Shown here: positions 7,620-58,363 of the stretch, in pieces
Numbering within the stretch: position 1 is the first letter of the stretch
How the letters are laid out: the number at the start of each line of letters is the position of its first letter
Made by a program: the position numbers and the translations under genes
Notes under the pieces: model-generated
The model's database searches: none
What the model was told of the DNA's origin: nothing
What the model saw: only the letters and a program-made list of their open reading frames with translations
NCBI RefSeq assembly: GCF_963675165.1
Contig: NC_087380.1
Location: 698,303 to 762,302, forward strand
Length of the DNA: 64,000 bases
Reading direction: 5' to 3'
From: Halichondria panicea
Lineage: Eukaryota; Porifera; Demospongiae; Suberitida; Halichondriidae

Positions 7620-7796
7620 CTACTTGTTCTCTGTGTTGCAGTCAGTGGATGCATAAGCTGCACAGGCTGAGAGCGGGTAGTCTGCAGGAGGAGGGGGGCG
7701 TGGCTGGTCCACCACCTCATAGGTAGCCTCCTCTTGTAGTTTGCTCAACCCCTCGTAATCATGGGAGGGGAGATGACTCATCACCACTGGGGGTAG
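7620..7796 (-). CDS. R3 cytoplasmic tail exon with ITAM-like motif; splice acceptor mutated
   Basis: Codes for VVMSHLPSHDYEGLSKLQEE then ATYEVVDQPRPPPPADYPLS and ends ASTDCNTENK with TAG at 7620-7622. The two tyrosines form YEGL, eight residues, YEVV, close to the ITAM rule YxxL/I-x6-8-YxxL/I, with Val at the last position. RPPPPAD could bind SH3 domains. Minus-strand sequence before the exon is CGTGCAA instead of CGTGCAG, which removes the AG. Confidence 0.7.
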   Translation of the reverse strand, partial: LPPVVMSHLPSHDYEGLSKLQEEATYEVVDQPRPPPPADYPLSACAAYASTDCNTENK

Positions 7797-10700
7797 TTTG
7801 CACGAAATAGAATATAATATATAGATTATACATTAACTCACATGCCGGTACATAATTATAATTATTATAGAATAAGGGCAGAAGCTCTCTATACAACCAC
7901 ACCATATATGCACTGTACAGCTACTTCATTCACACACTAGCTAACACTCACTGTGTTGGTTGGCTGCCTGTCTTCTCATCACTCATGTCCTTGGATCCAG
8001 ACCTCCGTAGCCTCAACATAACCAGCACTATTACAATCAGTACTAGCACAGCAATGGCCAAGACTCCAGCAACCACCCCACCAGCCACTGCACCAACATT
8101 GACCACTACAATCTCTGTGGGTGACTCAGAGGTAGTAGCCATAGAGGAAGTTGGAGCAGCCACCTGCGTCCGATTAGTGATGTCCTCAGGGCACTCTGGA
8201 CTATTGAGGTTAGCAATGACAATCGGACAACTGTTAGTCACACTGAGGCCTGCACTCTGCACCACAACGATTGGATCATTCTCAACCCACTGTTCCATTA
8301 GCCTAGCCAGTTGTATGGTGGATACACTCTCTGTTCCAGTCAGCACAGCTCTGTAGGTCACATGACTAGAGGAGCCATCAAAACAATTGATAAACTCGTC
8401 AGTGAGAAGGGAGGAGATGAACCCACAAGCACACAATCCTTCAACACCTTGAGATAGTCTGGTAGTGATGTCACTGGCTATGGCACTTCTTCCTGACTCA
8501 ATGTACACCTCACAGTTTGTTATTCCATCCAGACGAAGTTGAATATTGAGTGCTATAAAACAAAAACCAAAAGAAAATGATGTGAATCCGTATGAATACA
8601 CTATCTTTAGTAAGGTTTTACGTAAGTATGCTTACATATTTTGAGTGGAATTGTAAATGTACCAACTTACTCATGAACTCAATGGTGTAGTGAGCAGCTA
8701 CAGTGTGTCCCCCCTCAAGCTGACTGGAGGTGAGGATGACCTGACAGCTGTACTGACCAGCGTCTGACAAGTAGAGAGTGTCAAAGTTGAGGGTTGCTGT
8801 GCTGGTCATGAGTGACCCTCCCTCCCTCGTCCACTGGTAGGAGAGGGTGGGTTGTAGAGAGGCCCCTCCACTCAGGGAACAAGTAAGGGAGAAACTCTGA
8901 CCAGCCATTGGAACACCACTGGGGCTGATCACAGCTAGGAGCTCTGTGAAAGTAATAACAATCTTGTTTCAGTTTAAACTTAAGTAAACAGATCTAATGG
9001 GATGACAGATGACAACTGGTGGACCATATGAATTATAGACTGCTAATGTAAACATACAATTGATGTTGATAATAACTTGCGTACGTAAACAGGTTGGAGC
9101 ATCTGGAGTCCACTGTCCATCACCACCACAAGTCCGAGTGTTTGCTCCAATGAGAGTGTATCCAGTGTTACAGGTGTAGGTAGCAGTCATCATGAAGGTG
9201 GTTCCAGAGGATGTGTCCACTGCTCCATTAGAGGGGTCAGTGAGGCCATTACAGTCAACAGCTGTATAAAGAATTCATTCACAATTAGAACGTGTGTTAG
9301 TTCAACTAACAATTGCAAACAGGTAGAGATGTACTCCATCCACTGACAGCCACACAATTCCTCGTACTAGCACCACTCAGTTCATAGCCAGTGTCACAAG
9401 AGTAAGTGGCCATTGCTCCGGGTTGTGGAGGGTCAACATCTGATGAGTAGGTCACCATTCCATTGGAGAGGGGATCATGAGGACACAGGGCTATGGAAAC
9501 ATGAGGTATCCTCTATACGCTTGACTACTACACGAGGCATACCAGTACAGGTGGGTGCAGTGAGGCTCCATATTGCACTAGCCTGGCAGGTCCTGGTCAC
9601 AGTTCCAACCATATTGTAGCCAGTGTTACAGGTGTAGGTAGCAGTCATCATGAAGGTGGTTCCAGAGGATGTGTCCACTGCTCCATTGGAGGGGGCGTCC
9701 AGGGAACCACAGTCAACAACTGTGGGGAGATATGAAATTGATGAAATGGACAATTGTACGACTTACATTGACAAGTTAATGATAATACAGTTGATAATAC
9801 AGTTAATGCAGTATTATCAGTGACATCAACTTCACATACGTGAACAAGTTGGTAGAGGTCCCCAGGTCCCACTAGCCATACAGGTAGCCATTGCTGTGGT
9901 GACTCCAGTGGAGATCCCATATCCACTGACACAGGTGTAGGTCACTGTCCCTTGGTAGGTTGTGCTGGTGGGTGTTCCAGGAGATCCATTGCCAGTGGTG
10001 GGAGGAGAGCCACAATCCACAACTGAGAATAAATGATATTATCAAGTGCAATAATGCATGCATTGCTCAAGTGCAGCTTGCAGCAGTCTTTCTTCTTTAT
10101 ACAGTACTTTGCAAGTAGGTTGAATCATTCAAAGTTGAATGTTGAAGTGAGTACTCACACCACTAAACCACAAAGCTGATACAACTGTAAGTGGCTGTCA
10201 CAGCCTGTCAGTGTGATGATGCCCATGCATGATAATACACAGCACTGACTACATGTGTGGGTGTTCATCTAGATGCATATTCAAATGACTTGAGGTGCAG
10301 AGTGTTGCTACACTACTTAAGCAAACCAAGTAAGAGAATTAATGTACATCAGCAAAAGTACTGTAAAAGAATAGAGCATTTGTTCGGGAGAAGTGGAGAT
10401 GTCGAGCCAAAGTAGCAAAGGCATGCATGGTCCTCATCCTATGTTGAAATCCGTAACAACAGATACTCTAGGCACTTACTTAGGAGAAGTTCAAGCAAAG
10501 ATACACATACATTTGTACATAATTATGAAGCTTGTGGGTAGATCATAATCATGATCAGCTTTGTTTTGTGGTTTAGTGGTGTGAGTACTCACTTCAACAT
10601 TCAACTTTGAATGATTCAACCTACTTGAAAAGTACTGTAATTAATGAGGCACAAAACATTAACAGTGACAAATAGACAAGAAAAAAACTTGATTGGCGCT

Positions 10701-11698
10701 TATATTAGAGTGGTGCTAAAGTGATAGTAGCTGTTCCACGAGACTATAGGATCAGTATTAGACTAGATTTCAATTTTCTAGTTATATGCGCTAGCACCAT
10801 AATTTAGTTAACGCTCACAATTGGAGCTTCTATTAAGGTGACGCTGTAATTATAAGATGGACGGTTAACAGTACTCACTTGTACAAATGACTGATGGTGT
10901 TGGAGACCAGGTACCAGCACTAGTACCATCATCACTCATACAAGTTATCGGAGTAGCTCCACTGATGGTGTACCCAGGGTCACAGGTGTAGGTGGCCATG
11001 TTGGTGGTTGCATCGTATGAAATCATTCCATTAGACACGGGAGTCAGTGTGGGGCAGGGAGCTGTGGGGGGTGGGAGTTAGTATTGGACATAGACAATAT
11101 AGTCAGCACTTACTGAAGGTGAGACATATCCTCAGTGCTGTGTTATTCCTCACACAGCAGTGTTCTCCATCAGGACTGAAGTGTGTGGGACCACGATACA
11201 GAGCAACGCCAAAATTAGTAACATCTCTGATGAACACTTCGTCCTGAACTGCCAACAAAGTACTTCCAAATTGCAATGCACTCCCATCGGGGAAAAGCCA
11301 CAATACACTACCAGTGTCTTCAGTGTAGCAAAGCCAGGGGCGTGGTAGACCATCAGCTCCTGATCCAACATCAGAGAATGAGATGATCTCTCCAGTGTGG
11401 TCAGTGCCATCACCGAATTCATTGGATGCTGCCAGTCCAGCTGTATGCCATAATACAATAATTGATGCTCTGATATCAAACCTATAATACTTGTTTCATC
11501 TACTATCCAATAGCACAGGTTAGTATTAGCTTAGCCATAATTATAGCTGACTGCATGATAGTATCTATGCATGATCTATATCAACTCACTCAAAGCCTGC
11601 TGTCCATACACAAGAGAAGCACTTCCCAGCAGACAGCAGAGAAATAACCTTGAGGGGAACATTCTCATTATTCTTGTAGCCAAGAGTTCATTATTCAT
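7620..11698 (-). CDS. R3: signal-IgN-SCRx5-IgM-JMD-TM-ITAM-like tail receptor
   Basis: Complete module order on the minus strand. Exons: signal 11590-11698, IgN 11114-11440, SCR 10880-11065, 9840-10022, 9540-9722, 9310-9495, 9080-9265, IgM 8670-8943, JMD/TM 7953-8552, tail 7620-7796. With five SCRs it is the most compact full-length member. Every ectodomain exon reads open. The one visible fault is at the tail exon: other copies have TGCAG before ACTACC, here it is TGCAA, so the acceptor AG is gone. The gene may end differently, use a cryptic site, or be inactive. A 536-bp MITE sits in the intron after the first SCR. The role as a cell-surface recognition receptor is inferred. Confidence 0.75.
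7953..8552 (-). CDS. R3 juxtamembrane domain and transmembrane exon
   Basis: Opens at a TTTTATAG acceptor with LNIQLRLDGITNCEVYIESG, includes LCACGFISSL, SSHVTYRAVLTGTESVSTIQ, LARLMEQWVENDPIVVVQSA and the SPEC end. A Thr/Ser-rich linker (AAPTSSMATTSESPTE) leads into a transmembrane helix VAGGVVAGVLAIAVLVLIVI with LRLRRSGSKD after it. The helix has no charged residue. The domain family is unknown to me; position and size recall SEA domains but no autoproteolysis motif is visible. N-terminal residues differ from the other copies more than the rest does. Confidence 0.75.
8670..8943 (-). CDS. R3 membrane-side Ig domain exon (IgM)
   Basis: Reads VISPSGVPMAGQSFSLTCSL, YQWTREGGSLMTSTATLNFD and YLSDAGQYSCQVILTSSQLE, ending HYTIEFMS. 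Canonical Cys pair, Trp and DAGQYSC are intact. Almost identical at the base level to the other IgM exons in the window, which suggests recent duplication or gene conversion of this exon. Confidence 0.85.
9080..11065 (-). CDS. R3 SCR exons (five)
   Basis: First SCR (10880-11065) begins APCPTLTPVSNGMISYDA and ends SVICT, with a longer loop MSDDGTSAGTWSPT. Then 9840-10022 (VVDCGSPPTTGNGSPGTPTS), 9540-9722 (VVDCGSLDAPSNGAVDTSSG), 9310-9495 (ALCPHDPLSNGMVTYSSDVD) and 9080-9265 (DPSNGAVDTSSGTTFMMTAT). All have the four-Cys sushi pattern. The last two types recur in R4 at 30650-30840 and 30430-30605 in the same order, so R3 and R4 share their 3' ectodomain ancestry. Confidence 0.8.
10102..10637. 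mobile_element. 536-bp MITE with TA flanks in an R3 intron (Tc1/mariner-like)
   Basis: Inverted ends of about 80 bp start CAGTACTTTGCAAGTAGG on the left and CAGTACTTTTCAAGTAGG on the reversed right end, and run through CACACCACTAAACCACAAAG. TA flanks each side. TA duplication and CAGT ends fit Tc1/mariner-type MITEs; the class is inferred. No coding capacity is seen. Confidence 0.75.
11114..11440 (-). CDS. R3 N-terminal Ig-like exon (IgN)
   Basis: Acceptor CATACAG at 11441-11442, donor GTAAGT after 11114. Reads GLAASNEFGDGTDHTGEIIS, PRPWLCYTEDTGSVLWLFPD, VFIRDVTNFGVALYRGPTHF and SPDGEHCCVRNNTALR. Intact. Shares NNTALRICLTF with the R9 copy at 57780, unlike the VTFSEC endings elsewhere, consistent with R3 and R9 being the receptor halves of one segmental duplication. 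Confidence 0.75.
11590..11698 (-). CDS. R3 signal-peptide exon
   Basis: Two in-frame ATGs lie at 11698 and 11668; the second gives MRMFPSRLFLCCLLGSASLV followed by YGQQAL, a good signal peptide with cleavage near VYG. The exon leaves in phase 1 at GTGAGT. The same peptide opens R8 and R9, and a variant opens the RPTP. Confidence 0.8.
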
Positions 11699-14808: not shown

Positions 14809-14928
14809 TTACAGAAAGTTTGCATAAGTATCGAAGGAGTCCAAGTAGACCAACAAGGCCTCGAAAACATCCTTGTAGTTGTCCTGTGAGGGGGAGTGGC
14901 ACATTAATACACATACACTGCACACACA

Positions 14929-14980
<52 letters not shown>

Positions 14981-16283
14981 TGCACACACACACACACACG
15001 CACACACACAATGACTGTGGTGTGTGGTAGGAAATACAAGTAATGCACAAGGCATGAATGGTGCAAGGAGGCTTGCTTGTGTGGGTAGCAGCTGAGAGGT
15101 CTGGCTTATATAAGTGGTGCAGGCTCTATATATAATAGCTGTAAGCAGCAGATGAACTCACGACTGAGGGTACTGCCCCTGGCTTGTGGACCCTGAGAGC
15201 CTTGACCACCTGGAACACATCCACCACTCCCTCTGTCTTGCAACGGTCAATGGTAGTAGCTATAGAGCAGTACATACCAGAGCGGGTCGCAGTGTCACTG
15301 GAAATAACACAATACAATTAGAAACTTATTATAACAGATCCTCACCTGCAGTGGACCACAATCGCCTTGTTTCCAGTCCTCCTTTGAACCTTTATAACCT
15401 CCTCATTCACGTCAGTTACAATCTTGAGGTTTGCACATGCACCAGTCGACTTCCAATCGAGAATTTGGATTTGAATTATTTGCTGAGTTTGCTTAGTCTG
15501 GAGGAAAAAATAGGAACGATAAAGAAGCAATCGAAGTGATATATAAATAACAAACCTTCTTGTTAAGTACGCTCAGTTGCCTCATAACGAACCCAGTGTT
15601 GGTTTCCTCACCCAAGTTATCGATGGTGAACTCACCGAAGGAGGTGACATTGCCACTCTCTGGCCAGTACTGGGAGCATGCCTCCTACACACACACACAC
15701 ACGCACTCAACAGGGAGGACCTCTAATGGAGGCCATCTCTTACCTTCCCATTCTCACTGAGTGGAGTCAACATCACAACAGCCGCACACTTCCTGTCATA
15801 GATCACCTTCCAGAAGTTACGCACAGTTGAGTCCAGTGGATTCTGGGCAATGATGTATGCCTTCTGGTGCTTGTAGCCCTGGAGGGAGGGAGGGAACACT
15901 GAACAATGTGCTCCAAATGATAGTGGTACAATAATTATGGTGTGCTTAGATTAGTGATGTATTTCAGGCGAACATTTTCCATTTTTTGAAGTGAGTGTTT
16001 TTTTCTAAATCAAGTCTGTTTCCTGGAACTATCTTTCGTTGTTCATAACTTGGGTAGCAAACGTCCAATTAAAAAAATAATGTTGTGTGTTCAGTAGCTC
16101 TTTGAGTGCCTTGCGAACACACACTTACATTGACAAAGACGGCATTGACATAGTCACGGCCAGGGTCCTCTCCTTTCAGGAACACACGGTGATTCTCAAC
16201 TGTGGAGTTGGTAAAGGGGCGCTTACATATAATCAGGTAATGGTCGTTTAATCTAAAATCTAAAACCTTAGTAAATACTTACT
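14809..16283 (-). CDS. RPTP D2 phosphatase-like domain exons (degenerate)
   Basis: Six exons from 16139-16199 to the stop give GENHRVFLKGEDPGRDYVNA, GYKHQKAYIIAQNPLDSTVR, CSQYWPESGNVTSFGEFTID, TQQIIQIQILDWKSTGACAN, VVHC joined to SDTATRSGMYCS, VVDVFQVVKALRVHKPGAVP and DNYKDVFEALLVYLDSFDTY ANFL. The C(x)5R skeleton survives as CSDTATR, but the WPD loop reads WKS and the glycines of HCSAGVGRTG are gone. So D2 is probably a non-catalytic regulatory domain, as in many animal RPTPs. Confidence 0.85.
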
Positions 16284-19200
16284 TGGTAGGTACTGTATTC
16301 CCCTGTTCAGGTTCTTGTGTCTCAATGCACTACTGCAGTTGACCTCATTCGGATTTGGAGATACTTGTTCCAGAATTTGGAACTGGTATTGGAAATCTGA
16401 GACGGTTTTTCCCGGGGCCACTGATGACATCTTCTGTATCTGTCTGCGCAGATCTCCAGCACTGATCTGAGTGTCTCCACACGTCACTGACTCCAGGATA
16501 GCATCGTGGATGAACACATATTGGTCCTATAGGAAGAGGGGCAATGAGCATGCTCAGTAGAATCAATTCAAAATGGCAGTGTCTGAGCCATTTCACTGTT
16601 AATGTCACGTCATTAGACACTACCGGTAGTAGATAAGATCTACATGGGAAGTACATGGGAAAAGTGCCTCAGAGCAGGTATACTAAGGGACTTAGTATAC
16701 CTGCAAATTTACTTAGTATACCTAGTATTCCGTTGTTAAGTAATTGTATTGTAGTCAAGCAGTTTGCTAACTATTATTTAGATGGTAGTGCTAATAGTTG
16801 GGTCGAAAACAGCAAAAAGCCCCGGCCCCTCTGGATCTCAGATAGAGTTATTTTGACTTTATATATCTGTTGCCCATATCATTTGTGTGACAAATGTGAA
16901 CTGAATTGAACATTATATGAAAAAGTATAAAAACAGCAATTTAAACTACAAACTTTTGTCATTCTTCCCCTGATCAGTTTCTTCCGTGAGATAATCTAGA
17001 GAACTGCAGCTCCACAGCACAAACTAGACACATATTACTATCCTCTGTTGTCTTGGATACGTCCCTAACTAATCGCTTTCCCTCAAAGTTAAGTCAAATT
17101 TGCTAGGGTGGAAGCTTTTTATTTTTTTTTCATTATTTTCTTACCGAGTATGCTCAAACATAGCTAATTGCCCACACACCTCTTACCGTAGTGTTTTGTA
17201 CTGTCGATTCTTACCTCTCCAGTTCCGGAGATAGTCTAGTCGATAAGCTGCTTTAGGTTAATATGATGACTGCTCTTATTCTGAGCTGCTTATGCCTTAT
17301 TATAGATCTAATAATCACTGCATGCATATAATCATACGTGAACTAGATTTACTACTAGTACAAAAACTTCATGGTTGACAGATGCACAAAAAAAAACTGG
17401 AACAGTGTCAGCTAATGCAGCTGAAACAAGTTGTTGTTCTTATAATGGTGGCAATGCATAGACTACAGATATTCGATCTATAGCTAACGTACCTACAAAT
17501 TGGAGAAAAAGTGTACAAACAAGTGCAAATAACATTTTGTGAAAAAATGGGGGAGGTAGGGTTGGTATAATAATTTATTGGTTATTTTATGGTTGATATT
17601 GGCTTGGTTGGAGCACTACTTCTCCTTTTTAACTATCATTACTTTTGCGTTCAGGTTTTCTACTGGCGTTTCATGATGAAGAGGGTAAAAAAAACTAGCC
17701 TTATTAATAATAATTATATCATAAATTATTACAACTATAGACCCTCATGCAGCTGTTGACATGAATATATAGAACCAGAGGAGTGTTCAGTTATACAATC
17801 ACTGCAATGGGTCTAACAAACTACTTTTAGTAGACTGGTAAAGGATCACATCAGCTGAAAATAATTATCGTGATTAAATGCCCATGGTAAAAGCTGTCTT
17901 TGTCAATAAACTCCATGTCAATAAACGCCCATCTCAAACAAAGCCAATATCAACCATAAAATAACCAACACCAAACCATATCTTGTTTACGTCCTTTTTG
18001 GTGTTTGAGCGGCTCAGCCAACCCTACTTCCCCCTCCCCCTTTTTTCACAAAATGTTTTTTGCGCTAGTTATATATATATACTGTGGGTACTTAAACTGG
18101 ACAGATTACACGTTGTTATCCTGTATTAGCCGGTATCTGGCTAATGGTTAGCTCATACGCAAGCAGTCGATACCACGCCCACTCTCAGAGGAAGTGGGCG
18201 TGAGGACGAGGCTAGGCATACCTAATTTTTATAATGGCCACTTTATTATTTATATAGTGTGTACAAATGATACCCACTTTCCCTGACTACATGTAATCCT
18301 CTACACATTCTTATCAGTTAGACTCAGAGGAGGTCCGACATGCGTGCACGAATCACTATAAGTGCCAGTATATTGGGCTGGACCTTATCACGTGACCGCA
18401 ATGACATCAATGCACTGAACATGTAGTTACTTGTTTCTGTGTCTATATAGTACGTGCTTACCTGGGTCTGGACCATTTTCATTCTCTGATTGCGAGCTCT
18501 GACAATGGTGCCGGAAATATCGATGATGTCCTCAGCTGCGATCTGATCGAGGACATTATCAAGGGCAATGTAAGTGCCTGTGCGTCCCACACCAGCACTG
18601 CAATGGACCAGGAGAGGACCTCTGGATGGCTTGTGTTGGGACTTGACCCGACGGTGGAACCCAAGAATGGGCGTGGCATAGTCAGGCACACCGTGATCAG
18701 GCCACGTCGTGAAGTGAAACTGAGTGGTCTTGAATGGTTTCCCACTTTCCCCTTTCATCTGTGACAAAGACAAACATCGAAAGAAAATTAATGTGTGAAG
18801 TAAACAGTCAAAAAACACAATGTCAACGAATGTTAACAAAATTACTGTTAAACATAACAATTATTGTTAACATAACATATGCAGTATATATAATGCTATT
18901 AGGGTACTCACTGCAAGTAGTAGGTTTCTGACAGTGTAGTCAGCCAGGACCTGCTGGTCTGTGATGGTGACCGTGAAGGGGCCATAGCTCACACTGCCAC
19001 TGTCAGGCCAGTACTGTTGACACTTGATCTTGTTGTTCTCCATGACGTTGGTGAGCATGACTATTATGGGTGGTCTCTCCTGCCACATCATGCGCCAGAA
19101 GTCCACCAGAGTATTGGGTAGTGGTCCTTTGTGTGGGGAGGGGAGGAATAGACATATTGAAAACAAGCAATGAAGTATTTAACAATAGTCATGATTGTAA

Positions 19201-21383: not shown

Positions 21384-21459
<76 letters not shown>

Positions 21460-21945: not shown

Positions 21946-22000
<55 letters not shown>

Positions 22001-23385: not shown

Positions 23386-23428
<43 letters not shown>

Positions 23429-33263: not shown

Positions 33264-33390
33264 CTGAGTAGTGCATGTGTGTTTATCCTAATACTAGCTC
33301 ACCAACTCAATATTGTCAAGAGACTGACGACATGCAGGATCTCTAGAGTAATGTACAAGTAGCTACAGAAACTACACACAATAACTCACT

Positions 33391-46900: not shown

Positions 46901-49900
46901 TGCTTGAGAGGGTGGTCCCTGTTGTAGTGACTCTTCCATTGATAGGATCATCCAATGATCCACAGCTAACTGTAAGGAACAACATTACACGTGTATACAA
47001 TGTGCCTATTAAACTTCTAACCTGTACAAGTTGGACTACCACCATCAGACCACCCACTGGCAGTACAGGTCCTTGGTACACCTCCACTGAATTCATACCC
47101 AGAGACACAGCTGTAGGTAACCGTGGAACCCACAGCTCTGGGAATGGTGGGGTCGCTGTAGGTCACCACTCCATTGGGCGGTAGTGTGACGTTGGGGCAA
47201 ATCACTGAATAGAAAGTTATATAACTCATAAAGTCGTCAGTTTGAGTACATACGTGTACAAGTGAGGGATGTTCCACTCCATGATCTATCAGACTGACAG
47301 GTCCTAGTGCCTCCACCAGCTAACACGGTGTACCCAGTGATACAGCTCTGTGTAGCAATGGCTCCCTCTAGTACGGGGGATGAGGGTGGATCGTAGACGA
47401 TGACTCCATTGGTGAGGGTGAGGAGAGGACAGATAGCTGTGGGGGAACACTTGATATCAGTTCAACAACACATCCCCCTCACCAGTACAGACAGGGTCAT
47501 CTCCAGTGCTCCATCCACTAGCAGTACACGTCCTCACCATCAGTCCAGTCATATGGTAGCCAGGGTTACAGGTGTAGGTAGCCGTGGAGCCCTCATCTCT
47601 GGGGATGGTGGTGTCACTGTAGGTCACTCCTCCATTGGTTGGTACGCCAAGGTTGGGGCAAATCACTAAATGGAAATAAGTTGATCGTTAAGTTGTCCGT
47701 TTTCACAATCAACAGCTATAACAAAACAACTTGTGACACCCAAACAATAAATCTTACTCACGATTACACACAGGTTCTGACCCACTCCAGTCTCCATTAG
47801 CCTGACAAATCCTGGTCTGACCTCCACTACGTGTGTAGCCAGTGTTACAGGTGTAGGTAGCAGTCATCATGAAGGTGGTTCCAGAGGATGTGTCCACTGC
47901 TCCATTGGAGGGGGCGTCCAGGGAACCACAGTCAACAGCTAAACAACAAAAATTAATTTGTATTTGATTATTGATGGTCATACTGTACTCACGATTACAG
48001 GAAGGTTCTAACCCAGTCCAGTCTCTATTAGCCTGACAAGTCCTGGTCATATCTCCAGTCAGAGTGTAGCCAGTGTTACAGGTGTAGGTAGCAGTGTTTG
48101 AGAGGGTGGTCCCTGTTGTAGTGACTCTTCCATTGATAGGATCATCCAATGATCCACAGCTAACTGTAAGGAACAACATTACACGTGTATACAATGTGCC
48201 TATTAAACTTCTAACCTGTACAAGTTGGACTACCACCATTACTCCACCCAGTGACAGTACAGGTCCTTGGTACACCTCCACTGAATTCATACCCAGAGAC
48301 ACAGCTGTAGGTAACCGTGGAACCCACAGCTCTGGGAATGGTGAGGTCGCTGTAGGTCACCACTCCATTGGGCGGTAGTTGGACGTTGGGGCAAATCACT
48401 GAATAGAAAGTTATATAACTCATAAAGTCGTCAGTTTGAGTACATACGTTCACAAGTGAGGGGTGTTCCACTCCATGATCTATCAGACTGACAGGTCCTA
48501 GTGCCTCCACCAGCTAACACGGTGTACCCAGTGACACAGCTCTGTGTAGCCATGGTTCCCTCTAGTACGGGAGATGAGGGTGGATCGTAGACGATGACTC
48601 CATTGGTGAGGGTGAGGAGAGGACAGATAGCTGTGGGGGAACACTTGATATCAGTTCAACAACACATCCCCCTCACCAGTACAGACAGGGTCATCTCCAG
48701 TGCTCCATCCACTAGCAGTACACGTCCTCACCATCAGTCCAGTCATCTGGTAGCCAGGGTTACAGGTGTAGGTAGCCGTGGAGCCCTCATCTCTGGGGAT
48801 GGTGGTGTCACTGTAGGTCACTCCTCCATTGGTTGGTACGCCAAGGTTGGGGCAAATCACTAAATGGAAATAAGTTGATCGTTAAGTTGTCCGTTTTCAC
48901 AATCAACAGCTATAACAAAACAACTTGTGACACCCAAACAATAAATCTTACTCACGATTACACACAGGTTCTGACCCACTCCAGTCTCCATTAGCCTGAC
49001 AAATCCTGGTCTGACCTCCACTACGTGTGTAGCCAGTGTTACAGGTGTAGGTAGCAGTCATCATGAAGGTGGTTCCAGAGGATGTGTCCACTGCTCCATT
49101 GGAGGGGGCGTCCAGGGAACCACAGTCAACAGCTAAACAACAAAAATTAATTTGTATTTGATTATTGATGGTCATACTGTACTCACGATTACAGGAAGGT
49201 TCTAACCCAGTCCAGTCTCTATTAGCCTGACAAGTCCTGGTCATATCTCCAGTCAGAGTGTAGCCAGTGTTACAGGTGTAGGTAGCAGTGTTTGAGAGGG
49301 TGGTCCCTGTTGTAGTGACTCTTCCATTGATAGGATCATCCAATGATCCACAGCTAACTGTAAGGAACAACATTACACGTGTATACAATGTGCCTATTAA
49401 ACTTCTAACCTGTACAAGTTGGACTACCACCATTACTCCACCCAGTGACAGTACAGGTCCTTGGCATACCTCCACTGAATTCATACCCAGAGACACAGCT
49501 GTAGGTAACCGTGGAACCCACAGCTCTGGGAATGGTGAGGTCGCTGTAGGTCACCACTCCATTGGCCGGTAGTTGGACGTTGGGGCAAATCACTGAATAG
49601 AAAGTTATATAACTCATAAAGTCGTCAGTTTGAGTACATACGTTCACAAGTGAGGGGTGATCCACTCCATGATCTATCAGACTGACAGGTCCTAGTGCCT
49701 CCACCAGCTAACACGGTGTACCCAGTGACACAGCTCTGTGTAGCCATGGCTCCCTCTAGTATGGGGGATGAGGGTGGATCGTAGACGATGAATCCATTGG
49801 TGAGGGTGAGGAGAGGACAGATAGCTGTGGGGGAACACTTGATATCAGTTCAACAACACATCCCCCTCACCAGTACAGACAGGGTCATATCCAGTGCTCC

Positions 49901-52181
49901 ATCCACTAGCAGTACACGTCCTCACTATCAGTCCAGTCATATGGTAGCCAGGGTTACAGGAGTAGGTAGCCGTGGAGCCCTCATCTCTGGGGATGGTGGT
50001 GTCACTGTAGGTCACTCCTCCATTGGTTGGTACGCCAAGGTTGGGGCAAATCACTAAATGGAAATAAGTTGATCGTTAAGTTGTCCGTTTTCACAATCAA
50101 CAGCTATAACAAAACAACTTGTGACACCCAAACAATAAATCTTACTCACGATTACACACAGGTTCTGACCCACTCCAGTCTCCATTAGCCTGACAAATCC
50201 TGGTCTGACCTCCACTACGTGTGTATCCAGTGTTACAGGTGTAGGTAGCAGTCATCATGAAGGTGGTTCCAGAGGATGTGTCCACTGCTCCATTGGAGGG
50301 GGCGTCCAGGGAACCACAGTCAACAGCTAAACAACAAAAATTAATTTGTATTTGATTATTGATGGTCATACTGTACTCACGATTACAGGAAGGTTCTAAC
50401 CCAGTCCAGTCTCTATTAGCCTGACAAGTCCTGGTCATATCTCCAGTCAGAGTGTAGCCAGTGTTACAGGTGTAGGTAACAATGCTTGAGAGGGTGGTCC
50501 CTGTTGTAGTGACTCTTCCATTGATAGGATCATCCAAAGATCCACAGCTAACTGTAAGGAACAACATTACACGTGTATACAATGTGCCTATTAAACTTCT
50601 AACCTGTACAAGTTGGACTACCACCATCAGACCACCCACTGACAGTACAGGTCCTTGGTACACCTCCACTGAATTCATACCCAGAGACACAGCTGTAGGT
50701 AACCGTGGAACCCACAGCTCTGGGAATGGTGGGGTCGCTGTAGGTCACCACTCCATTGGGCGGTAGTTGGACGTTGGGGCAAATCACTGAATAGAAATAG
50801 CATTTAGTTATATAACTCATAAAGTCGTCAGTTTGAGTACATACGTTCACAAGTGATGGGTGTTCCACTCCATGATCTATCAGACTGACAGGTCCTAGTG
50901 CCTCCACCAGCTAACATGGTGTACCCAGTGACACAGCTCTGTGTAGCCATGGTTCCCTGAGGGTGTGGTGAGGTACTAGAGCCATAGCTAATCATTACAT
51001 TGACCAGTGAAGGAAGGTCATCACAGAGAGCTGTGGGGGAACACTTGACATCAGTTCAACAACACATCACTGTAGAACAACATCTATCAACCATGCCATT
51101 GGTGGGGTCAGTGAGTGGGCCACAGTCAACAGCTACAGTGTATAATAATAAGCTTTAAAAACAGGTGGCCACGGTGTTCACTGGTCTAGTATTCATGGTC
51201 TCCGCATTATAGCCAATCATCCCATTGGTTGGAGCAGGCAAGTCAGAGCAGGTAGTGGTGCTGACTGCACACATTATAATGAAAGCAATTTTACACTCTT
51301 GGTCGGTACAGATGGCCAGGACAAAATTTAATGACAATGCTAGAAAAATATTGATAATAGTTACTCTTACGTTCACAAGTGGGTCTCACAGTGCTACTCC
51401 ACATCATTGTATCATCATTACAGGTGATGGATGAGATGGTCGCCACAGCGTACCCAGGGTCACAGGTGTAGGTGGCCATGTTGGTGTCTGCATCGTATGA
51501 GATCATTCCATTAGACAGGGGACTCAGTGTGGGACAGGGAGCTGTGGGGGGTGGGGGTTAGTATTGGACATAGACAATATAGTCAGCACTCACTGAAGGT
51601 GACACATTTACTCTCATTGGTGGCAGTCCTCACACAGCAGTGTTCTCCATCAGGACTGAAGTGTGTGGGACCACGATACAGAACAACGCCAAAATTAGGA
51701 ACATCTCTGATGAACACTTCGTCCTGAACTGCCAACGATCTACTTTCAAATTGCAATGCACTCCCATTGGGGAACAGCCACAATACACTACCAGTGTCTT
51801 CGGTGTAGCAAACCCAGGGGCGTGGTAGACTATTAGCTCCTGATCCAACATCAGAGAATGAGATGATCTCTCCAGTGTGGTCAGTGCCATCGGGCTCATT
51901 GGATGCTGCCAGTCCAGCTGTATGCCATAATACAATAATTGATGATCTGATACCAAACCTATAATACTTGTTTCATCTACTATCCAATAGCACAGGTTAG
52001 TATTAGCTTAGCCATAATTATAGCTGACTGCATGATAGTAGATCTATCTATGCATGATCTATATCAACTCACTCAAAGCCTGCTGTCCATACACAAGAGA
52101 AGCACTTCCCAGCAGACAGCAGAGAAACAACCTTGAGGGGAACATTCTCATTATTCTTGTAGCCAAGAGTTCATTATTCAT
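40796..52181 (-). CDS. R8: giant SCR receptor (about 36 SCR domains), ITAM-like tail
   Basis: In-frame ATGs at 52181 and 52151, TAG at 40796-40798. Exons: signal 52076-52181, IgN about 51594-51920, SCR1 51360-51545, an SCR-e variant at 50840-51040, a run of 33 SCR exons of five types (a, b, c, d, e) from 50790 down to 42920, a last SCR 42540-42735, IgM 41880-42165, JMD/TM 41093-41715, tail 40796-40974. Two truncated SCR stubs (51165-51265 with 51070-51130, and 42780-42830) sit at the two ends of the run and are presumably skipped. All other exons look open with phase 1-1 borders. The scale and periodic layout recall the long homologous repeats of complement receptor 1; any ligand is unknown. 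This is the best candidate for a working member of the family. Confidence 0.85.
41093..41715 (-). CDS. R8 juxtamembrane domain and transmembrane exon
   Basis: LHIQLGLEGITNCRVYTEQD, GIESQCACGFNSSL, SHVTYRAVLTGSESVSTIQL, ENDPIVVVQSAGLSVTNSCP, stalk with two ATPTSS units, VVNVGTVAGGVVAGVLAIAV helix and LRLRRSGSKDMSDERTGSQ. Six Cys before the stalk are conserved between copies. Confidence 0.8.
41880..42165 (-). CDS. R8 membrane-side Ig exon (IgM)
   Basis: AIQVVITSSGVPMAGQSFSL, TCSLSGGASLQPTLSYQWTR and DAGQYSCHVILTSSQLEGEH. Intact; the intron to the JMD exon happens to be open in this frame. Confidence 0.85.
42540..51545 (-). CDS. R8 SCR exons
   Basis: Types by their starts: a ICPNVQLPPNGVVTYSD, b VSCGSLDDPINGRVTTTGTT, c DCGSLDAPSNGAVDTSSGTT, d ICPNLGVPTNGGVTYSDTTI, e CPLLTLTNGFIVYDPPSSP. 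Counts: a 7, b 7, c 6, d 7 (one variant at 42920 with YSHPTIPRAVDS), e 7 (one variant at 50840), plus SCR1 (51360) and the last SCR (42540). The b exon at 43205 carries a c-like end (TYTCNTGYTRSGDQTRTCQA), a hybrid that marks a recombination point. Confidence 0.85.
42780..42830 (-). pseudogene. SCR stub at the 3' end of the R8 array
   Basis: Only the first ~17 codons (ICPDLPVPTNGAPLVYTDT) remain, running into unrelated AGTATAAGG sequence. The identical stub with the same junction occurs in R9 at 56370-56437, so the break predates the divergence of these two loci. Confidence 0.75.
43881..51040 (-). repeat. Six tandem 1.19-kb units, five SCR exons each
   Basis: Type-d exons start at 43881, 45072, 46263, 47457, 48651 and 49845, spacing 1191, 1191, 1194, 1194 and 1194 bp. 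Exons and introns are nearly identical between units; differences are single bases and 3-bp steps (for example loss of a 9-nt stretch TAGCATTTA in inner units against 43630 and 50800). Half a unit more lies at 42920-43865. The pattern indicates unequal crossing-over with homogenisation, and copy number is likely polymorphic. Confidence 0.95.
51070..51265 (-). pseudogene. Truncated SCR stubs at the 5' end of the R8 array
   Basis: The exon matching 37265-37470 keeps only TTCSDLPAPTNGMIGYNAET through VNTVAT; about 135 bp with its second half and donor are gone near 51170. The neighbouring 51070-51130 keeps only the beginning of another SCR (CGPLTDPTNGMVD). Both are likely scars of the recombination that built the array. 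Confidence 0.75.
51594..51920 (-). CDS. R8 N-terminal Ig-like exon (IgN)
   Basis: GLAASNEPDGTDHTGEIISF, PRPWVCYTEDTGSVLWLFPN, VFIRDVPNFGVVLYRGPTHF and SPDGEHCCVRTATNESKC. Intact with CATACAG acceptor. Confidence 0.8.
52076..52181 (-). CDS. R8 signal-peptide exon
   Basis: MRMFPSRLFLCCLLGSASLV YGQQAL from 52151, or ten residues longer (MNNELLATRI) from 52181. Leaves in phase 1 at GTGAGT. A mobile element begins about 20 bp upstream of 52181, so the R8 promoter region differs from those of R3 and R9. Confidence 0.8.
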
Positions 52182-54375: not shown

Positions 54376-54555
54376 CTACTTGTTCTCTGTGTTGCAGTCA
54401 GTGGATGCATAAGCTGCACAGGCTGAGAGTTGGTAGTCTGCAGGAGGAGGGGGGCGTGGCTGGTCCACCACCTCATAGGTAGCCTCCTCTTGTAGTTTGC
54501 TCAACCCCTCGTAATCATGGGAGGGGAGATGACTCATCACCACTGGGGGTAGTCT
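54376..54555 (-). CDS. R9 cytoplasmic tail exon with ITAM-like motif
   Basis: VVMSHLPSHDYEGLSKLQEE, ATYEVVDQPRPPPPADYQLS, CNTENK. Same YxxL-x8-YxxV arrangement; acceptor TGCAG intact. Confidence 0.75.
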   Translation of the reverse strand, partial: RLPPVVMSHLPSHDYEGLSKLQEEATYEVVDQPRPPPPADYQLSACAAYASTDCNTENK

Positions 54556-54697
54556 GCACGAAATAGAATAATATATGGAATACATTAACTCACATGTACA
54601 TAATTATAATTATTCTAGTATAAGGGCAGAAGGTCTCTATATACAACCACACTGCCATCTGGTATGTACAGCTACTTCATTCACACACTAACACTCA

Positions 54698-55277
54698 CTG
54701 TGTTGGTTGACTGCCTGTCTTCTCATCACTCATGTCCTTGGATCCATACCTCCGTTGCCTTAGTAACAACAGCACCACTATTACAATCAGTACTAGCACA
54801 GCAATGGCCAAGACTCCAGCAACCACCCAACCAGCCACTGCACCAACATTGACCACTACACTCTCTGTGGGTGAGGTAGTAGCAGTTGTCCGATTAATGA
54901 TGTCCTCAGGGTACTCTGGACTATTTCTGTCAGTGATCACCACAGGGAAAGTGTTAGTCACACTGAAGCCTGCTCTCTGCACCACAATGATTGGATCATT
55001 CTCAATCCACTGTTCCATTAGCCTAGCCAGTTGTATGGTGGATACACTTTCTGTTCCAATCAGCACAGCTCTGTAGGTCACATGACTAGGGGAGTCATCG
55101 AAACAAACCATGAAGGAATTCAAAATGAGGGAAGAGTTGAATCCACAGGCACACTGGCTTTCAATACCTTGTGTCAGACTATTGGTGATGTCATCTGTTT
55201 TCATATCAGCGTCTTGTTCAGTGTACACTCTGCAGTTTGTTAGTCCCTCCAGACCAAGTTGAATGTGCAGGCCTGTG
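54698..55277 (-). CDS. R9 juxtamembrane domain and transmembrane exon
   Basis: LGLEGLTNCRVYTEQDADMK, SQCACGFNSSLILNSFMVCF, YRAVLIGTESVSTIQLARLM, then FSVTNTFPVVITDRNSPEYP. Two Cys conserved elsewhere (NSCPIV and SPEC) are Phe and Tyr here, suggesting they pair with each other and were lost together. Helix VAGWVVAGVLAIAVLVLIVI and RQRRYGSKD follow. Confidence 0.75.
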
Positions 55278-55439
55278 GAATGTGGAATAGTTGATAAGCA
55301 AAAAGAAGCCTAATGCCAATAGAGCTATCATTGGGAGATTCATAGTATACATAAGAATTACAACAACTAGTCTGTTTGCATTGTTCGTGTGAAATTGAAT
55401 CAATAGCTATAAAAAAACAAAAACATAACACTTACTCCT

Positions 55440-55715
55440 GAACTCAATGGTGTAGTGAGCAGCTACAGTGTGTTCCCCCTCAAGCTGACTGGAGGTGAGG
55501 ATGACCTGACAGCTGTACTGACCAGCGTCTGACAAGTAGAGAGTGTCAAAGTTGAGGGTTGCTGTGCTGGTTATGAGTGACCCTCCCTCCCTCGTCCACT
55601 GTTAGGAGAGGGTGGGTTGTAGAGAGGCCCCTCCACTCAGGGAACAAGTGAGGGAGAAGCTCTGACCAGCCATTGGAACACCACTGGGGCTGATCACCAC
55701 TTGTATGGCTGGATG
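55440..55715 (-). pseudogene. R9 IgM exon with premature stop
   Basis: Same as other IgM exons except for TAA in place of Tyr in LSYQW (55601-55603). Cys pair and DAGQYSC are unchanged. Confidence 0.85.
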
Positions 55716-55944
55716 GAAGAGAGTGGGTGCAAACAAAACAATAATGTAAAGAAACTCTGTTCACTTTCACTATAGCAGAATAAACAAAACTGCTACAGCA
55801 ACAGGTGGTCACAGCAAATAACTGAGACAGAGGATATAGACAACAACAAAATATAGCGGCTGGGGTAAAAAATTCGTTCAACCTCGAAAACAGAGATTCA
55901 AGGAAGTAAACATTTCATTGTCTGCACTGATCTTTAAAGACTGT

Positions 55945-57730
55945 TAACTCACGAGAGCACATTGGAGGTGTGCCCCAGAGTCCACTAGCCATGCAAGTCA
56001 GAGTTGAATTCCCAGATAACACAAAGTTGTCTTGACAAGAATAAGTGACAGTCTGTCCAAATGTTGTCGGAGGGAATGTTCTGGTGCTACTGGCAACCAT
56101 AGGAGGGACACCACAGTCCACAACTGGTGAGAGTAGATTAGCGTAGATTATCATAATTATTGAACTCACTTGGACAAGTAATGCTCATTCCACTCCACTC
56201 TCCACTGGTCCCACAATCTCTATCAGGTCCACTGGACACTCTGTATCCTTCATCACAGCTGTATGTAGCCACGGCTCCGTCTAGTCTGGGGGTGGTGTCT
56301 GGACTGTAGCTGATCACTCCATTGTCTGGTACAGTAAGGATATCACAGATGGCTGTAAAGAAGTATAAGGTGTCAGTGTACACAAGTGGTGCTCCATTGG
56401 TTGGTACAGGGAGGTTGGGACAAATCACTGCATGCAATAATGAGTGATACGATCAGTATAATGACTGTTACTACATATGAGGAACAGTATTCTCCACAGT
56501 AGCATTTTTTTGCCATTCACCAACCAATTAGCGCACTCCACCCAGTGGTAGTACAAGTCCTTGATATAGTGTCCCACTGAAGTCATACCCAGTCACACAG
56601 CTGTAGGTGGCAGTGGAGTCCACAGCTCTGGGGATGGTGGTGTCACTGTACGTCACTCCTCCATAGGTTGGTTCTCCAAGGTTGGGGCAAATCACTAAAT
56701 GGAAATAAGTTGATCGTTTTCACAATCAACAGCTATAACAATAACTTGTGACACCCAAACAATAAATCTTACTCACGATTACAAATCAGCAGAAAAAATT
56801 CACAATTTGTAACTGTGTTCGTTATAAGGTACCATCTATACACTTGACTACTACACGAGGCATACCAGTACAGGTTGGTGCAGAGAGGCTCCACATTGCA
56901 TTAGCCTGACAAGTCCTGGTCACAGTTCCAACCCGAGTGTATCCAGAGATACAGGTGTAGGTAGCAGTCATCATGAAGGTGGTTCCAGAGGATGTGTCCA
57001 CTGCTCCATTGGAGGGGGCAGAGAGGGAGCCACAGTTGACAACTAAACGACAAAAATAAATTTATATTTGATATTGATGGTCATACTCACGATTACAGGA
57101 AGGTTCTGACCCACTCCAGTATCCATTAGCTTGACAAGTCCTGGTCTGACCTCCACTACGTGTGTAGCCAGTGTCACAGGTGTAGGTAGCAGTGCCTTGG
57201 TAGGTGGTCCCTGTTGTAGTGACTCTTCCATTGATAGGATCATCCAATGATCCACAGCTAACTGTAAGGAACAACATTACATGTGTACAATGTGCCTATT
57301 AAACTTCTAACCTGTACAAGTTGGACTACCACCATTAGTCCACCCACTGGCAGTACAGGTCCTTGGTACACCTCCACTGAATTCATACCCAGAGACACAG
57401 CTGTAGGTAACCGTGGAACCAATAGCTCTGGGAATGGTGGGGTCGCTGTAGGTCACCACTCCATTGGGCGGTAGTTGGACGTTGGGGCAAATCACTGAAT
57501 AGAAATAGCATTTAGTTATATAACTCATAAAGTCGTTGATAATAGTTACTCTTACGTTCACAAGTGGGTCTCACAGTGCTACTCCACATCATTGTGACAT
57601 CATTACAGGTGATGGATGAGATGGTCGCCACAGCGTACCCAGGGTCACAGGTGTAGGTGGCCATGTTGGTGGTTGCATCGTATGAGATCATTCCATTAGA
57701 CAGAGGACTCAGTGTGGGGCAGGGAGCTGT
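55945..57730 (-). CDS. R9 SCR exons
   Basis: Open: 57550-57730 (PCPTLSPLSNGMISYDATTN), 57307-57500 (type a), 57075-57260 (b/c hybrid, TYQGTATYTCDTGYTRSG), 56865-57043 (CGSLSAPSNGAVDTSSGTTF), 56165-56360 (CDILTVPDNGVISYSPDTTP) and 55945-56125 (CGVPPMVASSTRTFPPTTFG). The last four resemble the RPTP exons at 26225-27475 in the same order. Confidence 0.8.
56520..56695 (-). pseudogene. Dead SCR exon in R9
   Basis: Type d exon with a 2-nt insertion (CCTTGATATAGTG versus CCTTGATAGTG, near 56564) and a deletion of about 20 bp at 56523 that took the end of the exon and its donor, compared with 42920-42950. Confidence 0.8.
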
Positions 57731-57778
57731 GGGGGGTGGGGGTTAGTATTGGACATAGACAATATAGTCAGCACTCAC

Positions 57779-58102
57779 TGAAGGTGAGACATATCCTCAG
57801 TGCTGTGTTATTCCTCACACAGCAGTGTTCTCCATCAGGACTGAAGTGTGTGGGACCACGATACAGAGCAACGCCAAAATTAGGAACATCTCTGATGAAC
57901 AGTTCGTCCTGAACTGCCTCCTGTCCACTTTCAAATTGCAATGCACTCCCATTGGGGAACAGCCACAATACACTACCAGTGTCTTCAGTGGTGTAGCAAA
58001 ACCAGGGGCGCGGTAGACCACTAGCTCCTGATCCAACATCGTAGAATGAGATGATCTCTCCAGTGTGGTCAGCAGGAGAGGCCTCATTGGATGCTGCCAG
58101 TC
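57779..58102 (-). CDS. R9 N-terminal Ig-like exon (IgN)
   Basis: RLAASNEASPADHTGEIISF, PRPWFCYTTEDTGSVLWLFP, LFIRDVPNFGVALYRGPTHF, SPDGEHCCVRNNTALR. Intact, one codon longer (TTED) than R3. Confidence 0.75.
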
Positions 58103-58254
58103 GAACTGTATGCCATAATACAATAATTGATGATCTGATACCAAACCTATAATACTTGTTTCATCTACTATCCAATAGCACAGGTTAGTATTAGCTTAGC
58201 CATAATTATAGCTGACTGTATGATAGTATCTATGCATGATCTATATCAACTCAC

Positions 58255-58363
58255 TCAGAGGCTGCTGTCCATACACAAGAGAAGCACTTCCCAGCAGACA
58301 GCAGAGAAATAACCTTGAGGGGAACATTCTCATTATTCTTGTAGCCAAGAGTTCATTATTCAT
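58255..58363 (-). CDS. R9 signal-peptide exon
   Basis: MRMFPSRLFLCCLLGSASLV YGQQPL from 58333; longer alternative from 58363. Phase-1 GTGAGT donor. Confidence 0.8.

Follow-up and report, generated by a model that had tools for sequence, protein, structure and literature searches.

A receptor tyrosine phosphatase gene with an SCR ectodomain

The window, by which we mean the whole analysed stretch of 64,000 nucleotides, carries on its minus strand a gene for a receptor tyrosine phosphatase (RPTP). The gene model, built from the sequence, comprises 31 coding exons with GT and AG at 30/30 introns and compatible phases throughout, and these exons encode, in order, a signal peptide, 13 SCR (sushi) domains, an Ig-like domain (IgL), a transmembrane segment (TM), a cytoplasmic Ig domain and two PTP domains:

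14809..29111, minus strand: SCR-RPTP gene, 31 coding exons, 1,679 aa, open from ATG to stop
29042..29111, minus strand: signal-peptide exon, called by eye, MATVTLFLCCLLGSVSLVYGQDS
25518..28911, minus strand: 13 SCR exons, all phase 1-1 in the open model
27304..27472, minus strand: degenerate, frameshifted SCR exon, omitted from the clean model
25122..25463, minus strand: Ig-like exon (IgL), phase 1-1, in the open model
24977..25073, minus strand: transmembrane exon, ending in phase 2
23862..23971, minus strand: juxtamembrane (JM) exon, in the open model
22085..23791, minus strand: cytoplasmic I-set Ig domain, two exons (Pfam I-set, E 1.2e-11)
16283..21369, minus strand: PTP D1, with WPDHG and HCSAGVGRTG intact (exon 18462-18758)
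14809..16199, minus strand: PTP D2, degenerate, LDWKS replacing WPD and HCSDTATRSG replacing HCSAGVGRTG

The signal peptide and single TM (both called by eye), the ectodomain and the cytoplasmic PTP domains are those of a receptor tyrosine phosphatase. On the juxtamembrane side, the codon left open by the phase-2 TM exon is completed by the next exon, which adds basic residues, and the degenerate SCR exon (27472-27304) could be kept in the model only by bridging its frameshift with a 2-base exon overlap. The original observation that this gene ends in PTP domains was borne out: Pfam Y_phosphatase matched twice (E 1.2e-137), and D1-D2 aligned with D1-D2 of PTPsigma over residues 8-549 of 552 (E 8e-144), the best match being to the LAR/sigma group. 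CD45 (PDB 1ygr), with the same D1-D2 layout, was also matched (E 6e-100).

The SCR introns of this gene measure mostly 43-130 bases, and the intron after the TM exon is 1 kb long and filled with a 34-bp repeat. This repeat-filled intron could be taken to favour a separate gene for the SCR exons at 25.5-29 kb, unspliced to the PTP exons, but the phase-compatible model is open, the order TM, JM, I-set, PTP recurs in three RPTPs besides that of the window and the order IgL, I-set, PTP in 8/8 RPTPs of the surrounding cluster, and a second open RPTP model at C4:547-540 kb has short introns after its TM exon. The open model and the recurring gene order led us to reject a separate gene, to which we give almost no credence; as had been claimed, the SCR exons most probably belong to the PTP gene.

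Neighbouring receptors carry an ITAM-like tail

The following receptors and receptor pieces share the window with the RPTP gene, "SEA-like" being a label that we assigned from recall to the membrane-near domain:

40786..52181, minus strand: R8, signal peptide, N domain, 36 SCR, Ig, SEA-like, TM, ITAM-like tail
40786..40963, minus strand: R8 tail exon, YEGL-x8-YEVV at 40876-40923
51594..51917, minus strand: R8 N domain exon, of a family with dN/dS above 1
54379..58330, minus strand: R9, signal peptide, N domain, 6 SCR, Ig, SEA-like, TM, tail (motif 54466-54513), exon map only
34581..38123, minus strand: R6, N domain, 7 SCR, Ig, SEA-like, TM, tail (motif 34668-34715), exon map
7623..11665, minus strand: R3, signal peptide, N domain, 4 SCR, Ig, SEA-like, TM, tail (motif 7710-7757), exon map only
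5335..7000, minus strand: 5'-truncated tail receptor, frameshift in the tail beyond the motif
30173..33267, minus strand: tail-less ectodomain copy, N domain, 10 SCR, truncated Ig, directly upstream of the RPTP
38896..39881, minus strand: 3' half of a tail receptor, tail exon frameshifted, with tail matches in two frames

R8 gave an open model of 41 exons (2,518 aa plus stop), in which the starts of some SCR exons are clipped, and no signal exon was found for R6 in the exon map. YEGL-x8-YEVV was located in all four receptors said to end in YxxL-x8-YxxV, the tail sequence YEGLSKLQEEATYEVV lying on the minus strand at 7710-7757, 34668-34715, 40876-40923 and 54466-54513 (R3, R6, R8 and R9, respectively), and a fifth copy, YEELSKLQEEATYEVV, lies at 5421-5468 within the 5'-truncated gene. 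The tail exons of R6 and R8, read by eye, are in frame with the SEA-like/TM exon, which places the motif in the cytoplasm.

Among 39 tails the motif was YxxL-x8-YxxV, with the second Tyr in 39/39, the first in 36/39 (Phe in the other 3), Leu at +3 in 39/39, and Val (37) or Met (2) at +3 of the second Tyr. This set joins 20 of the 25 cluster tail matches, broken or split copies being excluded, to 19 of 20 stretches fetched from 26 matches outside the 262 kb described below, a few of the fetched tails ending early. The strict ITAM consensus consists of two YxxI/L about 6-12 residues apart, and YxxV falls outside it. We dropped the label of genuine ITAM because the second motif is YxxV; the tails are ITAM-like, not strictly ITAM. 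The genome contains Syk-, Shark- and SHP2-like genes, with a Syk-type C-SH2 (E 4e-38 to SYK) and an SH2-ankyrin-SH2-kinase layout among them. The tails may be phosphorylated and then bound by Syk/Shark-type kinases.

The window belongs to a 262-kb cluster

The cluster extends far beyond the window. The minus strand of the 262-kb exon map shows 8 RPTPs and 22 tail receptors in interleaved order. Grouping of the minus-strand matches gave 45 pieces. A catalytic PTP exon is present in 8 of them and the set of SEA-like, TM and tail exons in 22 (16 have an N domain and 6 lack one, some of the 22 being broken); the other 15 have neither, and 3 of these are exons of the E3 gene. The plus strand also carries a more distant PTP gene, at C4:521.8-526.1 kb, which stands outside all counts. 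The catalytic D1 motifs (HCX5R, WPD) are intact in all eight minus-strand RPTPs, and a UHRF1-like gene adjoins three of them. The model at C4:547-540 kb, whose last exon lies outside it, includes an N domain; in the RPTP at 768 kb, D2 contains a stop and the following exon is split by about 4 kb; the one at 670 kb, which comes after a cut tail-receptor piece, lacks both signal exon and N domain. Hybrid gene pieces were also found.

At two sites the end of a tail exon lies head to tail with the next RPTP, about 180 bp from its start codon. Given this spacing and the symmetric SCR exons (phase 1-1 in the modelled RPTP), it is conceivable that transcription reads through from gene to gene and that splicing then chooses the output to which an ectodomain is joined, for which the position of the tail-less ectodomain directly upstream of the window's RPTP also speaks. 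Against this, every modelled gene has a start and a TM of its own, a stop is reached in two of the three models, and the upstream regions are distinct; we regard such a choice as very improbable. Comparison of the upstream regions mostly revealed no promoters shared by the two classes, the exception being the RPTP starting at C4:535832, which has an upstream stretch of the tail class; since these regions are mostly class-specific, shared regulation is not favoured.

Ectodomain modules are exchanged between the two classes

The signal-peptide core had been noted as common to the RPTP and the tail receptors, and the DNA of the RPTP signal-peptide exon is indeed 89.6% identical to that of R8 over 67 bp, 89.9% to that of R3 over 69 bp and 88.4% to that of R9 over 69 bp. 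Four SCR tracts compared between the RPTP and R8 showed exon/intron identities of 94.9/96.4, 93.5/95.4, 88.5/96.0 and 90.2/94.4%, and one SCR exon of the RPTP has an R8 counterpart of 100% identity. The near-identity claimed for these exons together with their introns is therefore accurate for the introns (94.4-96.4%) but generously worded for the exons (88.5-94.9%). Likewise, the two classes do share SCR modules, but the same ectodomain cannot be ascribed to both throughout: the N domain of the tail receptors is present in five of the eight cluster RPTPs and absent from the window's own and two others.

When matches covering at least 85% of the length in another gene were considered, 11 of the 12 SCR matches of the window's RPTP (degenerate exon included) were closest to a tail receptor. 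Across the cluster, the best match of an RPTP SCR exon outside its own gene (n=51, from 53 RPTP exons, two having no qualifying match) was a tail receptor in 33 cases, an RPTP in 11 and a tail-less copy in 7, so that the RPTP-to-RPTP share, 0.216, equalled chance (permuted mean 0.215); this comparison used 205 of 240 matches, 35 partial or stop-bearing ones being dropped. On the tree, the N domains of the five RPTPs fall at separate places among those of the tail receptors; a single RPTP clade was rejected (p-AU 5.6e-47), and the effector labels are unclustered, with 9 changes for the tail class against a shuffled mean of 8.8. An RPTP and a tail receptor that start at C4:547148 and C4:551562 are direct neighbours with similar N domains. 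The chance-level share, the rejected clade and the alike introns uphold the original prediction that the modules are kept alike by recombination, and the tests support their sharing and exchange between classes by this route. The locus shows two marks of paired receptors: its linked genes have ectodomains that are homologous but cytoplasmic ends that differ, and there is recombination or gene conversion between the RPTP and tail classes.

The N domain diversifies and the catalytic domain is conserved

We calculated dN/dS by the Nei-Gojobori method summed over all pairs, which are not independent, with a codon bootstrap and after dropping rows with internal stops. For the N domain (27 of 29 matches, two short pieces being dropped) the ratio between paralogs was 1.76 (95% 1.29-2.49), and for the catalytic D1 PTP exon (n=8) it was 0.23 (0.14-0.35). 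Average divergence within a 21-copy clade is 9.8% for the N exon versus 2.6% for 44 bases of the adjacent 3' intron. This diversifying selection, observed between paralogs of one assembly, is what is expected of a recognition locus, and in its evolution the N domain resembles a domain used for recognition. A search by dN/dS in 20 and 39 tails did not establish purifying selection on the tail motif, given the intervals obtained for the tails (0.91, 0.44-2.37, in the 20 cluster tails; 0.74, 0.49-1.12, in the 39) and for the motif columns (0.50, 0.20-1.18).

These ratios bear on whether the likeness of the two classes is a by-product of the array, in which crossing over and conversion homogenise neighbouring SCR exons while the classes have unrelated ligands and jobs (the RPTP in adhesion, for example). 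Introns more alike than exons in the four compared tracts, as blind conversion predicts, an SCR dN/dS of 0.89, close to neutral, the many broken copies and hybrids, and the mostly class-specific upstream regions all fit this account. It sits poorly with an N domain whose dN/dS exceeds 1 and which is mixed between the classes, and with a second cluster at C4:1.27-1.38 Mb where an N domain lies, by position, upstream of 9/9 catalytic PTP exons. We judge it unlikely, though far from negligible.

Domain searches found no Pfam match for either the N domain or the SEA-like domain, and no credible match for the N domain in the PDB (best E 0.1); their AlphaFold models, intended to show whether the N domain has an Ig fold and the membrane-near domain a SEA fold, were too poor for use (pLDDT 38.5 and 42.1, respectively). 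Profile comparison indicated weak relatedness between the IgL exon and the N domain (probability 52%). On a wider scale, C4:0.09-2.61 Mb contains at least about 49 catalytic PTP exons, SCR ectodomains having been checked in the cluster's eight and two further genes, and a third class at C4:956-966 kb has a tail with a single YxxI/V. Receptor kinases with the same ectodomain were sought in two C4 receptor-kinase stretches (L049, L050), which gave no N-domain or SCR match. The genome is compact, at 131 Mb, which together with the short introns suggests a sponge, and Wnt matches support an animal; one COX1 fragment is also present.

A proposed recognition array with two main outputs

The reading to which we incline, and which we think fairly probable, is that the tandem array encodes recognition receptors with exchangeable outsides and two main insides. 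The outside consists of a signal peptide, mostly a fast-evolving N-terminal domain and a variable SCR string. One inside comprises Ig, SEA-like domain, TM and a YxxL-x8-YxxV tail that Src-type kinases could phosphorylate, and the phosphorylated tails would bind tandem-SH2 kinases (Syk or Shark); the other comprises IgL, TM, a cytoplasmic Ig domain and a LAR/sigma-like D1-D2 phosphatase, by which the tails would be dephosphorylated wherever receptors of the two classes bind a common ligand or sit close together. Unequal crossing over and gene conversion would spread ectodomain modules between the classes and, as each SCR lies on its own phase 1-1 exon, duplication, loss or swap keeps the frame. 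We propose that this ongoing spread would let activating-type and phosphatase-type receptors keep overlapping ligands. Diversifying, recombining ectodomains are coupled either to a tail of kinase-recruiting type, the recruitment itself being predicted, or to a phosphatase. From these features we infer that the classes may be functionally paired (shared ligand, opposite sign) and co-expressed.

Activating and inhibitory outputs are putatively assigned from domain type. CD45 promotes ITAM signalling in vertebrates, as in lymphocytes, so the label "inhibitory" is an inference, and the RPTP might instead be a positive partner that activates Src-type kinases and enables the tail receptors. Sequence does not give the sign, and CD45 has the same D1-D2 layout, but vertebrate RPTPs of that kind are not known to share an ectodomain with the receptors they regulate, and the best match here is to the LAR/sigma group; we consider a positive role quite unlikely.

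A further reading, offered as a speculation that is somewhat unlikely, is a plug-in locus of an early-branching animal, in which one pool of diversifying N domains and SCR exons is dealt by recombination to at least three outputs (ITAM-like tail, built-in phosphatase, single YxxI/V tail), gene content setting the balance of kinase and phosphatase for each ligand. If true, the locus would supply candidates for the missing self/non-self receptors, with an inhibitory enzyme that is built in, not ITIM-recruited. Returning to the two-output array, it is a candidate recognition array, and one genome cannot separate allorecognition from microbial recognition. If the proposal is true, it offers concrete genes for self/non-self recognition, for which candidates are disputed; differences between individuals are predicted to lie in the N domain, and the head-to-tail receptor/RPTP pairs are defined units.

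Comparison with known receptor systems

RPTPs of the LAR/PTPsigma (R2A) group have an ectodomain of Ig and FN3 domains. The sponge RPTP aligns with them along nearly the full length of D1-D2, with D1 intact and D2 degenerate, but has SCR and IgL in the ectodomain instead and, unlike them, a cytoplasmic I-set domain and many local copies. With CD45, an RPTP and ITAM-type receptors act in one pathway, but CD45 is not known to share its ectodomain with those receptors.

Among invertebrates, the Alr receptors of Hydractinia are clustered and have ITAM/ITIM-type tails; their ectodomains are of Ig type, and they are not known to include SCR domains or an RPTP member. A study of Botryllus schlosseri mentions these ITAM/ITIM-type receptors and describes the fester co-receptors (FcoR) of the fuhc locus as a clustered multigene family with Ig and sushi ectodomains and YxxI/L/V tails (PMC12065747). 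According to the same study, an E3 ubiquitin ligase gene adjoins each fester gene, an adjacency resembling that of the UHRF1-like gene and three of the eight RPTPs here (PMC12065747). The FcoR outputs given there are ITIM, hemITAM or core motif, unlike here, and RPTPs with CD45 homology are named in that study as signalling molecules that are expressed, rather than as members of the locus sharing the receptors' ectodomain (PMC12065747). The likeness to FcoR is one of architecture. Among the papers listed in searches of the open-access (PMC) literature, no title or abstract start describes an SCR-RPTP paired with ITAM-type receptors.

Vertebrate innate immunity relies centrally on paired activating and inhibitory receptors, of which the inhibitory one has an ITIM or a motif like it and recruits a phosphatase. 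Here the phosphatase domains lie within the receptor, the ectodomain consists of SCRs and the N domain, and the pairing is read from sequence. Siglec-11 and Siglec-16 are vertebrate paired receptors kept alike by gene conversion (PMC5701461), as the CEACAM and CD300 receptors reportedly are. Such receptors combine near-identical ectodomains with different signalling ends, as does the sponge locus. The comparison suggests that the array is an unusual variant of the paired on/off receptors of vertebrate immunity and, if this is true, that the same logic can arise in a sponge with other parts, the phosphatase being fused to the receptor.

A receptor phosphatase that shares its ectodomain type with tail receptors

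Within the 131-Mb host genome (39 contigs), the window corresponds to C4:698303-762302 and carries its receptor genes on the minus strand. Splice sites were read by hand and combined with a phase-constrained chaining script, giving the following gene models:

29111-14809, minus strand: receptor tyrosine phosphatase (RPTP), 31 exons, open frame of 1,679 aa (model)
52181-40786, minus strand: tail receptor R8, 41 exons, open frame of 2,518 aa (model)

The first model bears out the original prediction that the mid-cluster SCR (sushi) gene ends in PTP domains, with SCR and PTP exons joined in one open frame. One extra SCR exon is frameshifted, and the frame survives its omission because SCR exons are of phase 1-1. 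The codon interrupted at the phase-2 end of the transmembrane exon is completed by the next exon, which also contributes a basic stretch, and Pfam recognises in the cytoplasmic part an I-set Ig domain followed by two PTP domains, D1 and D2, whose alignment with PTPsigma spans residues 8-549 of 552. D1 retains both WPDHG and HCSAGVGRTG; D2 lacks the WPD and reads HCSDTATRSG. The first PTP exon occurs in two copies (window 21863-21946 and 21285-21369, protein 96% identical), possibly as an alternative exon, and a 34-bp minisatellite (window 24053-24939) lies in the intron separating the transmembrane and juxtamembrane exons.

The neighbouring receptors R3, R6, R8 and R9, among which R8 was modelled exon by exon, had been proposed to end in YxxL-x8-YxxV, and all four read YEGL-x8-YEVV; a fifth, broken tail copy in the window reads YEEL-x8-YEVV. 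The exon map showed no signal exon for R6. R8 contains near-identical internal repeats ~1.19 kb long that hold several SCR exons apiece (window 42.9-51 kb), so that length differences among haplotypes are likely.

Searching the genome for the tail yielded 52 matches, a figure that includes fragments of split copies. Almost all fall on C4, at 538-793 kb, 1385-1417 kb and 1739-1806 kb; C8 has two, and C10 and C12 have one each. The second Tyr is retained in 39 of 39 tail sequences and the first in 36, the other 3 having Phe; position +3 is Leu after the first (39/39) and Val (37) or Met (2) after the second. Judged against the ITAM consensus, the predicted tail is ITAM-like and falls outside the strict sense of the term. 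Tail dN/dS was 0.91 (0.44-2.37) for the 20 tails of the cluster and 0.74 (0.49-1.12) for 39 tails; the values for motif columns, 0.50 (0.20-1.18), versus the remainder, 0.91 (0.58-1.50), are suggestive of selective constraint on the motif and not significant.

Composition of the cluster

Exon types were mapped over C4:520-782 kb, and minus-strand matches were grouped into 45 pieces. A catalytic PTP exon is present in 8; 16 combine the N domain (an N-terminal ectodomain domain) with SEA-like (a descriptive label), TM and tail exons; 6 have SEA-like, TM and tail exons without the N domain; and 15 are of other kinds (tail-less copies, fragments and three E3-gene exons). Among the tail pieces, 22 in all, several are disrupted. 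Two features alone fall on the plus strand of the map: an isolated PTP exon at 552 kb and, at the cluster edge, a ninth PTP gene that is more distantly related (C4:521838-526099) and lies outside these counts.

The N domain of tail receptors also occurs in 5 of the 8 cluster RPTPs; it is absent from the RPTP of the window (717 kb) and from the two at 670 and 768 kb. In the gene at 768 kb, D2 contains a stop and a D2 exon is split; no signal exon is present in the gene at 670 kb. The RPTP at C4:547148-540141, whose model is open with the last exon left out, has a signal peptide, an N domain and 4 SCR, and starts ~180 bp past the tail exon of the upstream receptor. In a second cluster (C4:1.27-1.38 Mb), nine catalytic PTP exons alternate with nine N domains on one strand, as judged by position only. 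RPTPs at C4 346-355 kb and 2203-2213 kb contain SCR exons, with no N-domain match nearby.

Upstream regions of RPTPs versus tail receptors are mostly class-specific. Two ectodomain genes without TM or tail (C4:601416-597036 and 558249-556291) have upstream regions matching those of two RPTPs and are possibly secreted forms or remnants. At C4:956001-966000, reading by eye revealed a signal peptide, N domain, SCR, IgL (the Ig-like exon of the RPTP class), TM and a short tail, similar to the beginning of the ITAM-like tail, in which YxxI/V occurs once; on this reading the gene would represent a third receptor class.

Three of the 8 RPTPs are followed directly by UHRF1-like genes, one at C4:665 kb and two in the window, where minus-strand SRA exons (13537-13878 and 60360-60701, by Pfam) and RING-like exons near 12.5 kb and 59.3 kb (by eye) were identified. 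In Botryllus each fester gene is adjoined by a HECT E3 gene; here, the adjacency may simply reflect duplication of a block in which the genes were linked by chance.

Ectodomain modules are exchanged between classes

A qualifying match in another gene was found for 51 of 53 RPTP SCR exons, the best being in a tail receptor for 33, an RPTP for 11 and a tail-less piece for 7. The share of RPTP exons with their best match in another RPTP (0.216) is what chance predicts: permuting the labels of SCR exons 1,000 times gave a mean of 0.215. For the window RPTP, 11 of 12 SCR exons find their best match in a tail receptor, in one case with 100% identity. In a tree of 27 N domains (5 from RPTPs, 16 from tail receptors, 6 from neither class), 9 changes of the tail label are required versus a shuffled mean of 8.8, and forcing the RPTP rows into one group was rejected (p-AU 5.6e-47).

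The claimed likeness of the RPTP and R8 SCR tracts, introns included, was upheld: introns are 94.4-96.4% and exons 88.5-94.9% identical, so that recent recombination is the simplest reading. Two hybrid pieces (C4:595108-593327 and 553900-552015) run from N domain and SCR through part of a tail-class Ig exon into the last PTP exons and are probably dead recombinants, and an IgL exon sits inside the tail receptor at 687458-683890. The strongest rival to a paired-receptor system is a tandem array homogenised without functional pairing of the classes.

Selection on the exchanged domains

All selection comparisons are between paralogs within one genome, not individuals, with dN/dS summed over pairs (nearest pairs for SCR) and a codon bootstrap.

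dN/dS by domain
N domain (n=27): 1.76 (1.29-2.49)
N domain, 21-copy clade: 1.90 (1.30-2.93)
SCR (140 nearest pairs): 0.89 (0.80-0.99)
Tail-class TM exon: 0.81 (0.37-2.32)
Tail-class Ig: 0.58 (0.23-1.32)
IgL: 0.49
SEA-like: 0.42
D1 exons: 0.35, 0.23, 0.38

Mean divergence among the 21 clade members is 9.8% in the N exon, 2.6% in 44 bases of its 3' intron and 33% in its 5' flank; the four flanks inspected are of at least two unrelated kinds. For four RPTPs, divergence is 5.9% in the D1 catalytic exon and 27.8% in its 3' flank. The N-terminal domain thus outpaces the adjacent short intron, and the phosphatase is conserved.

Candidate signalling partners

At C4:4.84 Mb lies a stretch with two SH2 domains in tandem, the second of which is Syk/ZAP-70-like (SYK E 4e-38; next family Grb7, 3e-18). 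The gene at C9:5.255-5.260 Mb has the order SH2, ankyrin repeats, SH2, kinase, which we take to be the Shark arrangement, and a stretch of two SH2 plus PTP at C3:8.404-8.406 Mb is SHP2-like. Together these genes make an ITAM-type pathway possible. A cluster of tyrosine kinase exons was also observed at C4:2.52-2.76 Mb, near RPTPs at 2.58-2.61 Mb; the two stretches read contain receptor-like genes with an unrelated ectodomain.

Comparison with known recognition systems

The reading with most support is a paired-receptor system in which the ectodomains are shared, recombine and diversify and are coupled to two outputs. One output would be expected to recruit kinases, and the other is itself a phosphatase. 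The word "sushi" is absent from the main text of PMC10815196, and, of PMC5450542 and PMC8242945, the Amphimedon grafting paper contains none of phosphatase, sushi, tyrosine or receptor in its main text. Vertebrate paired receptors (PMC5701461) and Botryllus FcoR (PMC12065747) both differ from the system described here, in which the phosphatase is built into the receptor.
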